From NCBI GenBank assembly GCA_905204385.1, contig CAJKZL010000191.1:1-6419 (forward strand): a stretch of 6,419 nucleotides of DNA, given 5' to 3'. The notes below the pieces were generated by a model. That model saw only the letters and a list, made by a program, of their open reading frames with translations, was not told the origin of the DNA and did not search any database. The position numbers and the translations under genes are program-made. Source of the stretch: an uncultured Odoribacter sp. GTDB taxonomy: Bacteria; Bacteroidota; Bacteroidia; Bacteroidales; Marinifilaceae. Shown here one piece after another: positions 45 through 3,177 of the stretch (positions are counted from its first letter, which is position 1; the number at the start of each line of letters is the position of its first letter).

Positions 45-371
45 CTACTCTTTTTCGTTTACAGGGACAATACTCACCGAACCGATACAATCCTTGCAAC
101 AGGCCAACAGCAACGACATGCGGTCGCGCTGGTTGATTTTCCAACTCCGCTCGGCAATATCCAGCAACCATCCTTCGGGAATCAATCCGTCGAAAAAAGG
201 AAACAATACGCTATTGCGGTAAGGCTCTGCCGACAAAGGCAAGGTCAGACTCACCGCTTCTGCACCCGGCGATTTCAGATAACCTGCATCGTACTGAAAA
301 AGAAAACCGTTTTCATTTTCCGTAAGTATCCCTGCCAGCCGGTCCCGCTGATATACTTTTGCTTGTTTCAT
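45..371 (-). CDS. hipS: HipS-like protein: free-standing HipA N-terminal subdomain
   Basis: This 108-residue protein covers only the N-subdomain 1 of HipA. Its landmarks align in order with E. coli HipA: an SLTLPL strand at residues 41-46 (SLSLPL in HipA), FFDGLIPEG at 59-67 (FFDNLLPDS in HipA), and a C-terminal GSVSIVP at 97-103 (GAVTLIP in HipA). It ends exactly where that subdomain ends, so it is a separate gene and not a frameshifted hipA. The ATG at 371 overlaps the hipB stop in an ATGA, which suggests translational coupling. In the E. coli HipBST system the equivalent small protein HipS, rather than HipB, neutralises the HipT kinase. That role is inferred here from gene order and length. 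The alternative is a split HipA whose two halves reassemble into one toxin. Confidence 0.85.
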   Translation of the reverse strand: MKQAKVYQRDRLAGILTENENGFLFQYDAGYLKSPGAEAVSLTLPLSAEPYRNSVLFPFFDGLIPEGWLLDIAERSWKINQRDRMSLLLACCKDCIGSVSIVPVNEKE

Positions 372-589
372 TCGTCATATTGCTTTTTATTCATAGGTAC
401 CGCCCCCACTTCCGAGCCGAATAAATTCAATACCTGATTCACTTTGTCCAACCGGAGAGTCTGTTTCCCCTGCTCCAACTCCCTCACAAACCTTAAACCT
501 ACCCCCGCCTTTTCCGAAAGATCGGTTTGAGTAAGCCCATATTGCTTACGCATAATTTTTACGTATTCCGATAAAGATCGATATGCCAT
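368..589 (-). CDS. hipB: HipB-like XRE-family DNA-binding antitoxin
   Basis: A 73-residue protein, nearly all of it one Cro/C1-type helix-turn-helix domain. The helices fall at about residues 19-42, containing LTQTDLSEKAGV and then the recognition helix GLRFVRELEQGK, followed by LRLDKVNQVLNLFG (45-58), typical of HipB/XRE antitoxins. It is the first gene of the operon and its stop overlaps the next start by 4 nt. Family knowledge: HipB dimers bind operators in the hip promoter, repress the operon and recruit the kinase complex. The three palindromes just upstream (593-693) fit this autoregulation. The short acidic tail (MNKKQYDE) lacks the Trp-ended extension known in E. coli HipB. ATG at 589 is the only plausible start. 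Confidence 0.9.
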   Translation of the reverse strand: MAYRSLSEYVKIMRKQYGLTQTDLSEKAGVGLRFVRELEQGKQTLRLDKVNQVLNLFGSEVGAVPMNKKQYDE

Positions 590-719: not shown

Positions 720-749
720 AGATACAAAGGGACGGGGCTTTTGTTTCAT
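720..749 (+). repeat. REP-like palindromic element, copy A
   Basis: A 30-bp element built as a left arm (GATACAAA), a G-rich centre (GGGACGGGG) and a right arm (TTTGTTTC). It matches the consensus of the five copies at 27 of 30 positions and has one internal mismatch between the arms. It lies in the divergent intergenic region between hipB and the secreted-protein gene, facing copy B in inverted orientation. A and B share the right-arm variant TTTGTTTC. Confidence 0.85.
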
Positions 750-867
750 TTCCATAGAAGAGTAAAGAATGATTCAGCCAACCGGTAAAGTATCGATCAT
801 ACGAAACCGCGTTTCTTATTCGATGGATGAGTGTCAATATTTAACTTTTGTGTATTACTGAACCGAT

Positions 868-897
868 ATGAAACAAATACCCCGTCCCTTTGTATCA
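868..897 (-). repeat. REP-like palindromic element, copy B
   Basis: On the minus strand it reads TGATACAAA, GGGACGGGG, TA, TTTGTTTCA, T; 27 of 30 match the consensus. Read on the plus strand it begins with ATGAAAC, which gives an in-frame but probably false start codon for the downstream secreted protein. Together with copy C it brackets that gene in inverted orientation. Confidence 0.88.
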
Positions 898-907
898 ATT
901 TTATTTT

Positions 908-915
908 TAACTTTG
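908..915 (+). promoter_or_regulatory. Candidate -7 promoter element for the secreted-protein gene
   Basis: TAACTTTG matches the Bacteroides -7 consensus TAnnTTTG fully. The nearest TTTG upstream (889-892, inside copy B) leaves a 15-nt gap, shorter than the usual 19 or so, so the -33 half is uncertain. It would start transcripts near 920, downstream of the ATG at 868 and about 20 nt before the ATG at 943, which supports the latter as the true start. Confidence 0.45.
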
Positions 916-942
916 TTCGTTCAATTTTATGAAAAAAATGAA

Positions 943-2295
943 ATGAGAAAATGGTTATTATTCCATCTGGCAATTTGTATTTATGCTTGTTGTTTTGCCG
1001 GTGAATTGAAAGAATTAGTGAGACCTGTGCCGTGGGAAAAGTGGAACTTGTCTCCTTTGAAGGGAAATTTTGAAGAAGAGGTGCAGACTATTTTCCGAAA
1101 TGCCAACAAATATGCTGTAAATGAATGGTATCATCAGGTGAAACAATTTTCTGCCCAAAAGGATAAATACCTGGATTTCGGGGGAATCACAGAACATTAT
1201 ATCCGTCCTGTATCGCATGAAGCTTTTGCTTTGGGGGTAGCTTTAAAATTAAATGTTTATGAAGACAGCGTAACCGGAGTATCCCGCGAAAACGCCGAAT
1301 CGATGGGCTTGCGTCTGGTCAGTTCTTTGGCTTTCCGCCATAAAGCAAATCAGACAGGCAAAGCGTGGGGCGGACAATGGCAAAGTGCTCTATGGGCTGC
1401 ACAGGTAGCAACTACCGGTTGGATGTTTTGGGACCGGTTGACACCCGAGGGACAAGAATTATTATGCCGGATGATGGTGTACGAAGCGGACCGTTTTTTG
1501 GAGACACCTATTCCATATTATAGAGACCGCACGGGAAAAATTATCTATAAAGGAGATAGCAAGGCAGAAGAAAATGCCTGGAATTCTAATATATTGGTTA
1601 TTGCTGCGGTGATGATGCCTGAACATGAACATCGGCGTGCCTGGTTACAAAAAGCATTGGAATTTCAGATTTCAGCATATGCTGCTCCTTCGGACATGAA
1701 AAGCAAACGCAAAATAAATGGTATTCGGTTGAATACATTCTTGCAAGGGAGCAACATAGAAGAAAGCGGGGCAGTTATCAATCACGGCATTATACACGCC
1801 GATTATATGTGTGCAATTATGCATAATACTTTGAACGCCTGGATTTTCGGACTGGCTGGAAAAAAAGCTCCCGAAGCTTCCCTGATGAATGGGGATAAAG
1901 TGTATTATGCATTGACAGAACATCAGTTCCTTCCGGGTAAAACAATTTATGTCAGAGGAGAACAGGGAGAGCCTACTTGTCATATGTTCTTCCCCGAAGG
2001 AAACGATTGGGGACCCGGACGGCAAGACGGATATTGGCTGATGGATATTTTAGCTTATTCCTTTGGTTGGGATAAGGCCTCCACGATAAAGGCAAAAGAT
2101 TGGGCCGCTGTGCGTAACCGGAAGATGCTGGAAATGCAGTCCCGTAATCCGGATGGACGAAGCTATGGCGGACAGTCGGAAAATAGCTTTGCCAGCCGGG
2201 AAGAATGGTTTGCTGCGCAGATTGCTTTCGGGTATCTGGGACTTTGGGAAAAAGCGAACAAAATGCTGCGTTTTTCTAACAAAGCCGTAAAATGA
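943..2295 (+). CDS. Secreted alpha/alpha-toroid-like protein of unknown substrate
   Basis: A 450-residue protein with a signal peptide (MRK, then a hydrophobic WLLFHLAICIYACCF run and a likely cut near residue 19-20), so probably periplasmic or exported. The mature part is rich in Trp and helical pattern. Conserved-looking stretches are WGGQWQSALWAA (142-153), DSKAEENAWNS (205-215), NHGIIHADY (280-288) and FPEGNDWGPGRQD (350-362). These resemble a family of large secreted proteins of (alpha/alpha) barrel type, related in style to polysaccharide lyases and glycosidases; an enzyme on a glycan is a guess, not an assignment. An in-frame ATG at 868 would add 25 residues, but those first codons lie in palindromic element B and upstream of the candidate promoter, and they would bury the signal peptide. 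The stop TGA is the first three bases of element C. No SusC/SusD partner is nearby, so it appears to be a single-gene unit. Confidence 0.8.
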   Translation: MRKWLLFHLAICIYACCFAGELKELVRPVPWEKWNLSPLKGNFEEEVQTIFRNANKYAVNEWYHQVKQFSAQKDKYLDFGGITEHYIRPVSHEAFALGVALKLNVYEDSVTGVSRENAESMGLRLVSSLAFRHKANQTGKAWGGQWQSALWAAQVATTGWMFWDRLTPEGQELLCRMMVYEADRFLETPIPYYRDRTGKIIYKGDSKAEENAWNSNILVIAAVMMPEHEHRRAWLQKALEFQISAYAAPSDMKSKRKINGIRLNTFLQGSNIEESGAVINHGIIHADYMCAIMHNTLNAWIFGLAGKKAPEASLMNGDKVYYALTEHQFLPGKTIYVRGEQGEPTCHMFFPEGNDWGPGRQDGYWLMDILAYSFGWDKASTIKAKDWAAVRNRKMLEMQSRNPDGRSYGGQSENSFASREEWFAAQIAFGYLGLWEKANKMLRFSNKAVK

Positions 2296-2322
2296 AACAC
2301 AGGGACGGGGCGTTTGTATCAT
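2293..2322 (+). repeat. REP-like palindromic element, copy C
   Basis: TGAAACACA, GGGACGGGG, CG, TTTGTATCA, T; 28 of 30 match the consensus. Its first three bases are the stop codon of the secreted-protein gene. It is followed 44 bp later (start to start) by copy D in the same orientation, within the short space between two convergent genes, a position where a hairpin could also end transcription. Confidence 0.9.
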
Positions 2323-2336
2323 TTAATGAAATATAG

Positions 2337-2366
2337 AGAGACACAGGGACGGAGCGTTTGTATCAT
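2337..2366 (+). repeat. REP-like palindromic element, copy D
   Basis: The most diverged copy (26 of 30), with AGAGACACA as left arm, a GGGACGGAG centre and a TTTGTATCA right arm. It shares the ACACAGGGACGG variant with copy C, suggesting the two are a local duplication. Its right end directly touches the stop codon of the transposase gene at 2367-2369. Confidence 0.85.
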
Positions 2367-3092
2367 TTACAACCGATGAATGACATTTAAGCTAATCCCT
2401 GTAATTCGTGCAAGCTGCCGTTGTCCGATTCGAGGATTTTGCTTCAAACTTTTCAGTATCTGTTTTTGCTCCTCTTTAGGTAAAGTATCGAATTTCCGGT
2501 CTCCTGATGCCTCGTCCAGCAATTCCCGGACTTCGGAATCTTTCAATGGAGAATCGATATCCATAAATGTTCCGGAGTCTTCCTCTGCTATAAAACTTTG
2601 AAAATCAGCTTTATTATCGAAAAACAACGTCAAAAATTCAGTTGCAACAAAAGAATCAACAGGATTAAAATAAACCGGATAGCTACTCCATTTGTATTCC
2701 GCAACTTTACGGCACAGACCCGCCTTGAGGGGATTTTGTAAAACATACCGAAAACAACGCAGCAAATATCCCTGATCTTCAATTACTTCACTTTTAAAAC
2801 GATTCTGGAAAAGATATCCCGTACGCTCATACTTATGATTAAACCAAACGGCATAAGTAGTGAATATCCGATGAATGTAAAAACTTAACTGATCACTTTT
2901 TATAATCAGATGGATGTGATTATCCATCAAACAATAACAATACACTTGAAAAGAAGCACAAGTCTGTGATCTTAAGAGATCGACAAACATCTGACGGTCA
3001 TTGTCCTCAAAAAATATCGATGTACGGTCAATACCACGCTGAATGACATGGTAGACATCTGTAATCGACCGCTGACGAGCTTGCCTGGACAT
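2367..3092 (-). CDS. REP-associated tyrosine transposase (RAYT, Y1/HUH family)
   Basis: This 241-residue protein belongs to the IS200-like Y1 transposase superfamily. It has the RAYT start (VYHVIQRGIDR, residues 13-23), the metal-binding HUH motif H59-I60-H61 within MDNHIHLII, a probable catalytic tyrosine Y116 in FRYVLQNPLKAGL, and the KWSSY block (134-138). A C-terminal extension from about 185 ends in a helix-turn-helix-like GQRQLARITGISLNVIHRL, absent from short IS200 TnpA and typical of larger RAYT-like proteins. All catalytic residues are present, so it looks intact. In this family the enzyme nicks and joins single-stranded DNA at REP palindromes; five related palindromes lie within 2.5 kb here, two of them flanking the gene. 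The ATG at 3092 sits about 20 nt after a candidate promoter start. The stop touches element D. No partner gene shares its operon. Confidence 0.9.
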   Translation of the reverse strand: MSRQARQRSITDVYHVIQRGIDRTSIFFEDNDRQMFVDLLRSQTCASFQVYCYCLMDNHIHLIIKSDQLSFYIHRIFTTYAVWFNHKYERTGYLFQNRFKSEVIEDQGYLLRCFRYVLQNPLKAGLCRKVAEYKWSSYPVYFNPVDSFVATEFLTLFFDNKADFQSFIAEEDSGTFMDIDSPLKDSEVRELLDEASGDRKFDTLPKEEQKQILKSLKQNPRIGQRQLARITGISLNVIHRL

Positions 3093-3116
3093 TTTTCCGA
3101 TGATTTAACCGCATGA

Positions 3117-3147
3117 TAAATTTACGAAAAAAAATGTAAATAACAAA
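3117..3147 (-). promoter_or_regulatory. Candidate Bacteroides-type promoter of the RAYT gene
   Basis: On the minus strand TTTG (3147-3144) is followed after 19 bp by TAAATTTA (3124-3117), matching TAnnTTTG at 5 of the 6 fixed bases. The spacing is that of Bacteroides -33/-7 promoters and predicts a start about 20 nt before the RAYT ATG. The -33 box touches palindrome E, so anything bound to E could affect transposase expression. Confidence 0.5.
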
Positions 3148-3177
3148 ATGATACAAACACCCCGTCCCTTTGTATCA
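3148..3177 (-). repeat. REP-like palindromic element, copy E (perfect palindrome)
   Basis: On the minus strand: TGATACAAA, an 11-base G-rich centre starting GGGACGGGG, then TTTGTATCA and T. The 9-bp arms pair perfectly, the only such copy, and it matches the consensus at 29 of 30. Its first three bases form the TGA stop of the ABC exporter gene. In that transcript it would form a 9-bp hairpin followed by UUUU, so it could also act as a weak terminator between the exporter operon and the RAYT gene. Confidence 0.92.

Follow-up and report, generated by a model that had tools for sequence, protein, structure and literature searches.

How does a transposase of the HUH/Y1 type that carries an additional helix-turn-helix (HTH) domain select the repeats on which it acts? 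For the HTH-bearing branch the RAYT-like choice of repeat is open, and the HTH is left unexplained in the available part of the study that describes it (PMC6006769). A contig of an uncultured Odoribacter sp. raises this question in compact form. The window (the whole stretch of DNA analysed, 6,419 nt, to which our statements about palindrome copies refer) contains five copies of one palindrome and an intact HUH/Y1 transposase gene, from which no copy is more than 2.5 kb away (Table 1). We think it likely that the locus comprises a TIRYT-like Y1 transposase with its cognate palindromes and that recognition is bipartite, with the HUH domain reading the core of the palindrome and the HTH reading its arms, a proposal built on sequence comparison.

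The five copies had been reported in a first-pass annotation of the window and were recovered at the same places, with 2 (720-748), 1 (869-897), 2 (2293-2321), 3 (2337-2365) and 0 (3149-3177) mismatches to TGATACAAA-N11-TTTGTATCA; 200 dinucleotide shuffles of the window gave none. That annotation had also placed two inverted copies around the gene. The inverted flanking stands but the number does not: as the G-rich strand is the plus strand at 721, 2294 and 2338 and the minus strand at 870 and 3150, the transposase gene has three flanking copies, of which two lie 3' and one 5' of it. Judged by relatives, the unit is the 27-mer GATACA-N15-TGTATC, in which CA is separated from the core by two bases that differ among relatives. 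An intact GATACA or TGTATC half is retained in all five copies, each with 15 nt between CA and TG; the other arm deviates in four of the copies, reading GAAACA in copies 1-3 and GAGACA in copy 4. The cores read GGGACGGGG or GGGACGGAG, and copy 3 supplies the stop codon (TGA, 2293-2295) of the gene upstream of it. When folded as single-stranded DNA, the perfect copy at 3150 gave the best result (-5.5 kcal/mol, z -4.9), and folding of the four imperfect copies was weak (-2.0 to -2.8 kcal/mol, z -1.2 to -3.0).

One reading of such a locus is a canonical pair of a RAYT and its repetitive extragenic palindrome (REP), whose hairpin has GTAG at its foot. The protein does match the NCBIfam model REP_Tyr_transpos, at 59 bits and thus under the 80-bit cut-off, and its nearest solved structure is TnpA-REP (4er8). 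Neither GTAG nor GTGG, however, was read at the stem foot beside any of the five copies, in agreement with the earlier remark that no GTAG-type tetranucleotide adjoins the stem, and the protein ends in an HTH (HTH_24, 28.7 bits, cut-off 21.9) with model helices at residues 206-217, 224-231 and 235-240. The 165 residues of 4er8 align to model residues 1-182 alone; the rows of the PDB comparison scarcely extend past residue 182 and tell little of the HTH. We regard a canonical GTAG pair as very improbable, while the wider part of the same first-pass claim, a transposase with a cognate palindrome, is supported by relatives.

These relatives were collected in two sets. A scan of genome contigs kept at least 80 loci, with best segments 33-42% identical and mostly labelled Firmicutes; the system is thus not restricted to the Bacteroidales, the setting in which it was first noted. 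In the second set, of 112 loci, the class of Pelosinus (G003), which we take to be the Negativicutes, accounts for 109, and two loci are common to both sets. The places covered out of about 100 listed transposase places comprise 30 given as loci (L082 included) and 80 fetched by place, some twice. Proteins shorter than 200 amino acids (aa) and near-identical proteins (>85 or 90%) were left out, as were L085 from the protein tests (same place as L079) and loci without a unit pairing at least 5 nt (at least 4 nt in the 89-locus set). L087, L088 and L089 were omitted from a combined set of 92 loci and included again in a nearest-neighbour test on 109 loci; three of the 92 lacked a C[AG] anchor in the arm, leaving 89 anchored loci. 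The locus counts given below for stems, flanking units, the core-free test and the 200-locus survey retain some duplicates, e.g., L063/L113, L089/L111, L128/L220 and L142/L222.

Palindromes with the same centre and different arms surround many of the contig-scan loci. The unit in relatives spans 27 nt, NNNN-CA-NN-GGGAC(R)G-N6-TG-NNNN', with a constant core and variable arms. GGGAC[AG]G sites lay in a stem of score at least 6 in 143 of 422 cases (loci L001-L091), compared with 7 of 492 control-heptamer sites. The spacing from CA to TG was exactly 15 nt in 151 of 199 distinct units, a count in which the GGGAC[AG]G core was fixed by the construction of the search and the spacing was free; the unit is therefore 27 nt long and its half-sites start 21 bp apart. 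In the first set, window included, flanking units pairing at least 4 nt were found at 60 of 89 loci (on both sides at 31), 114 units pointing inward and 32 outward. Flanking units pairing at least 5 nt occurred at 64 of the 112 loci of the second set (both sides, 28), with 99 inward and 7 outward. A test that assumed no core recovered an inverted flanking segment of score at least 14 in 117 of 193 loci, against 21 of 193 in a direct-orientation control. The leading 7-mers among the 117 loci were GGGGACG (65) and GGGACGG (60), with GGGACGT (26) and GGGACAG (20) also present, and GGGACRG lay on the inward strand in 80 and on the other strand in 12. These 7-mers give GGGAC as the common part, one form of which is overlapped by the published motif GGGGWSAS.

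The same geometry bears on a different reading, in which the palindromes serve chiefly as operators. The HTH would then bind the duplex as a dimer and repress or switch the transposase gene and its neighbours, and the gene would be domesticated. In the units with 15-nt spacing, the distance between the N4CA and TGN4 half-sites is about two turns of B-DNA and would suit such a dimer, and in many loci copies adjoin the gene on both sides. In one genome (G894), however, ten transposase places are listed, and 30 of the 32 GACTCA units are over 2 kb away from every one of them, and the central GGGAC is more constant than the arms, although an operator spacer would not need it. A mainly regulatory role thus appears unlikely to us. 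As the 21-bp repeat of half-sites also suits an HTH dimer on duplex, the state bound in bipartite recognition may be either hairpin or duplex.

What do the variable arms follow? In Mantel tests on 44 loci, arm similarity was unrelated to Y1 distance (r 0.006, P 0.46) and weakly related to distance in the middle region (r 0.110, P 0.049); it was related to HTH distance at r 0.154 (P 0.024, or P 0.011 when Y1 was controlled for), the best single columns being 235, 240 and 224. Column 235 again came top of 214 in 54 non-redundant loci of the second set. In the combined 92 loci (<85% identical) most arm information resided in columns 235, 239 and 236, and residues 234-241 had a mean excess of 0.41 nats over arm positions -8 to -5 versus 0.09-0.18 elsewhere. 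Among the 89 anchored loci the dinucleotide before CA was GA in 25 of 29 loci with K235, GT in 17 of 24 with R235 and CT in 5 of 9 with Q235, and it was AA, TA or AG in 17 of the 20 with F, V, P, A, T, S or L at this position. Residue 235 ranked first for this dinucleotide (z 14.1), and the second arm base was most strongly tied to residue 236 (z 9.5). K235-GA was also kept in 3 of 3 cases in a hold-out of 22 loci with a GGGACGT core, 21 of which lie outside the 92-locus set. Comparison of these loci suggests that arm sequence tracks the recognition helix of the HTH more than it tracks the catalytic domain.

Shared ancestry alone might produce such a tie, if related transposases simply keep related ends and the HTH has another role. 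With relatedness unrestricted, Y1, middle region and HTH predict the arm nearly equally (2.95, 2.90 and 3.10 of 4 bases), and the Y1 correlation in the second set, given below, points the same way. When neighbours were restricted to <55% Y1 identity (109 loci), however, the nearest by HTH still predicted 2.03 of 4 arm bases (permutation P = 0.0066), whereas Y1 and the middle region each predicted 1.62 (P = 0.92 and 0.83) and random choice 1.63. A predictor based on six residues reached 2.44 of 4, a figure that is partly circular because the residues were picked on overlapping data, and we use the whole-HTH figure alone. On a tree built without the HTH, 44 disjoint nearest pairs shared the dinucleotide in 25 of 31 cases when residue 235 was of the same class, the classes being of our own definition, versus 1 of 13 when it was of a different class (Fisher P = 9.5e-6). 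The peak of the tie, moreover, falls within the recognition helix, on the three columns named above. Ancestry as the sole cause is, in our judgement, distinctly unlikely.

The arm type of the window recurs at 5 of 200 loci (L130, L135, L141, L150 and L152), each with a GATACA unit, or one ending in TGTATC, next to the gene and on the inward strand. Their helices begin TFNVV, TVNVV, TVNIV, TFNIV and TFNIV, respectively, and that of the window SLNVI; all five agree with the window in having a hydrophobic residue at position 235 followed by Asn at 236, and the Y1 domains of the first four are 44-49% identical to that of the window. Other loci with the hydrophobic-Asn pair (L161, L073 and L042) have GAAACA-like, GGAACA or AAAACA arms and so come near the variant arm, GAAACA, that copies 1-3 of the window carry. 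The combination of GATACA arm and hydrophobic-Asn helix is suggestive of small-scale convergence between phyla, though not proof of it because the five loci are partly kin. Of 37 genomes, 12 contained GATACANNGGGACRG, with 52 occurrences in all against 5 for the reversed control, and 15 contained GACTCANNGGGACRG, with 91 occurrences against 4. In cognate cases the counts of GATACA and GACTCA units separated cleanly, being 10 and 0 in G926, a genome of the GATACA type, 0 and 32 in G894, and 0 and 21 in G002.

Several observations weigh against a helix that sets the arm. The arms of the second set correlate with all three regions of the protein (Y1, r 0.142, P 0.008; middle, 0.146; HTH, 0.151). 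Partial tests gave borderline values, with P = 0.057 for the HTH given Y1 and P = 0.08 for Y1 given the HTH. In the hold-out, the R235-GT rule was weakened, holding in 1 of 5 loci with G as first base in 4 of 5, and the rule that pairs Q235 with CT was rejected, since AG was found in 8 of 8. These failures indicate that the code is not a one-residue table and that neighbouring helix residues matter. For distant pairs (<50% Y1 identity) the effect is modest (r -0.14 to -0.21) and the HTH scaffold, residues 218-233, is also tied to the arms (P 0.016); in the two distant pairs with all four helix residues alike, a mean of 3.5 of 4 arm bases differ. Four of the five GATACA loci are close kin (three with TFN) and do not represent five independent events, and when plain HTH identity is used to find the nearest neighbours of the window, their arms are GGGACA or GACTCA instead of GATACA. 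Finally, G918 contains 9 GATACA units, yet neither transposase locus examined there (L122 and L212; 5 matches listed) has one.

Taken together, comparison among relatives shows, at the level of sequence, the geometry of the units, that they share a core and mostly point inward, and that helix and arm are tied; the first-pass idea that the palindrome has its own recognition rule was, given this tie, a good guess. No prior report of the helix-arm link was found in the literature searched, from which subscription papers were mostly absent. We lean, by a little, towards a general form of the proposal, namely that recognition is split throughout a widespread Y1 branch: the chemistry would take place on a single-strand core that stays constant, and the address would be set by an exchangeable helix with a largely position-by-position code, in which residue 235 would go with the two bases before CA and residue 236 with the preceding base. 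If the helix does set the arm, the target choice of an HUH transposase would be predictable from sequence. Changes at a few helix residues would then found a new repeat family, a simple route to REP-like families, and the presence of many such transposases with different arms in one genome would be explained.

In mechanistic terms, the HUH domain, which is conserved between phyla, would act on the constant GGGAC of the 27-nt unit as a single strand, presumably once the arms have paired into a hairpin. The C-terminal HTH would read the variable arms (here GATACA/TGTATC) and address each transposase to its own repeat family. Units paired with their G-rich strands facing inward would delimit the transposase gene in one case (2294/2338 with 3150) and a segment without a gene in the other (721 with 870), and a gene-less pair of this kind may be comparable to a REPIN or a miniature inverted-repeat transposable element (MITE). 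Cutting, joining and copying would be as expected from the family. We infer contacts of the HTH with the arms and cleavage by the HUH domain within or close to GGGAC, and likewise that the units can move and that the copy in the window is active.

Inward pairs that enclose no transposase gene, as at 721/870, also occur in G894 and G926 (L231, L232 and L234). The pair in L232, formed by GACTCA palindromes of G894, encloses a reading frame of 110 aa (624-956), which we take to resemble a GIY-YIG nuclease.

Close relatives of the window transposase with their DNA context were not found in the order- and family-level genomes searched; homologous proteins 85-50% identical to it are known from a protein search. 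At the level of the order, 2 of 393 genomes matched, at 36-41% identity, one of them being the search centre, and family-level searches gave 1 of 101 (a partial match) and 3 of 123 genomes (two full-length at 42%, one partial). None of 200 sampled genomes of a larger family matched, an empty result that is not informative. The family of 101 genomes is the nearest found for the window, judged by the window's ABC transporter (75% identity to G314), and its one transposase match is weak. The first-pass annotation had asked whether the palindrome is equally frequent in genomes without the transposase; in these 101 genomes there were 5 one-mismatch matches, spread over four genomes and none exact, versus 8 for the reversed control, so that the window palindrome is not frequent in this family. 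Among viral contigs, no place carried the window palindrome and none matched the transposase protein alone, and an alignment of transposases (A1) gave 7 remote transposases. Plasmids yielded 16 records remotely matching the transposase protein, all <60% identical, and a plasmid search with the stretch 690-930 returned 2 matches, which is chance level.

Table 1. Palindrome copies, transposase and transposase domains in the window
Feature	Position	Strand	Remarks
Palindrome copy 1	721..747	+ (G-rich strand)	Left half of inward pair without gene
Palindrome copy 2	870..896	- (G-rich strand)	Right half of inward pair without gene
Palindrome copy 3	2294..2320	+ (G-rich strand)	3' side of transposase gene
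Palindrome copy 4	2338..2364	+ (G-rich strand)	Tandem with copy 3; 2 nt from end of transposase gene
Palindrome copy 5, perfect	3150..3176	- (G-rich strand)	5' side of transposase gene
HUH/Y1 transposase, 241 aa	2367..3092	-	NHIH 58-61; candidate catalytic Tyr116 (YVLQNP); WSSY 135-138
C-terminal helix-turn-helix, residues 206-241	2370..2477	-	HTH_24; three helices in model
Putative recognition helix, residues 234-241 (SLNVIHRL)	2370..2393	-	

Some further features of the units and their surroundings were seen in relatives. A sub-branch (L025, L030, L035, L056, L157, L160, L162, L163, L168 and L169) combines the core GGGACGT, GAAGC arms and a helix ending in [IV]FK. A broken 5' half that ends in GGG, GGGA or GGGAC is often found ahead of the palindromes (L001, L032, L068, L090, L245 and others). 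In 203 distinct 27-nt contexts, a duplicated fragment of the 5' arm lay within 24 nt in 51 rows versus 10 rows for the 3' arm, and an earlier look at partial copies had given 27 rows from 118 units; in these counts some units appear twice, and rows that keep no core letter or a whole unit are included. Partial 5' copies would possibly fit breakage inside the core, with slippage as the alternative, and we do not rely on them for the cleavage site. G894 also contains, inside GACTCA palindromes, an insertion sequence (IS; L228, L229, L230 and L237) whose transposase has 519 aa but is broken or cut in the last two of these loci. The end of this IS follows GGGGACGGTTC, and the element appears to use the GACTCA palindromes as its target.

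Elsewhere in the window, a HipB-type HTH gene (368-589, minus strand) is followed by a gene for a 108-aa protein that consists of a HipA N-terminal domain only (45-371, minus strand). Together (45-589) they look like the first two genes of a three-gene toxin-antitoxin set, presumably of the HipBST type, whose kinase gene would lie beyond the window edge. The 450-aa protein encoded at 943-2295 (plus strand) had no Pfam or NCBIfam match; some of its distant homologues carry F5/8-type and other extra domains, and its role may be glycan-related.

How does the locus compare with known systems? In the E. coli pair of TnpA-REP and REP, GTAG and features of the stem are read and the REP loop has no specific sequence role (PMC8266576); the window family, in contrast, has a constant loop and a separate HTH. 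The C-rich strand of the window loop contains CGTC, and CGTC REPs have been reported from Bacteroidetes, but these have CGTC as a terminal unpaired tag, a stem of 8-9 bp, a loop of 4-5 nt and no transposase (PMC3733652). The CGTC of the window copies lies inside the 11-nt loop and is not a terminal tag.

The closer likeness is to the TIRYT transposases (TIRtrons), Y1 transposases flanked by inverted repeats other than GTAG REPs, as is the window gene. The repeats are moderately abundant dispersed families, some partly or wholly self-complementary, with a GGGGWSAS motif in most but not all cases (PMC3733652). Non-GTAG inverted repeats, some with a GGGG-rich motif, had thus already been described, so that the class that the first-pass annotation thought possibly distinct is already on record. 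The window cores GGGACGGGG and GGGACGGAG fall outside GGGGWSAS, whereas relatives with GGGGACAG fit it, and the 27-nt geometry, the rule of constant centre and variable arms and the link between arm and HTH do not appear in the consulted parts of that description (PMC3733652). TIRYT probably corresponds to the HTH-bearing subclass 2.1 of TnpAY1, which is described as having a Y1 core, an SS motif after the core and a C-terminal HTH (PMC6006769). The window protein likewise has an HUH/Y1 catalytic domain and a C-terminal HTH; WSSY is present, and its HUH and Y motifs read NHIH and YVLQNP where the consensus given there is NH[VYF]H and Y[IV][EH]LNP (PMC6006769). As GGGGWSAS is not matched, we call the window system a relative, not a member, of TIRYT and subclass 2.1. 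For subclass 2.1 genes, automatic and manual searches found no REP-like sequences, and the C-terminal domain was considered either to stand outside target recognition or to have evolved for a new target (PMC6006769). Of these two options, the helix-arm comparison presented here favours a C-terminal domain that has turned to a new target.

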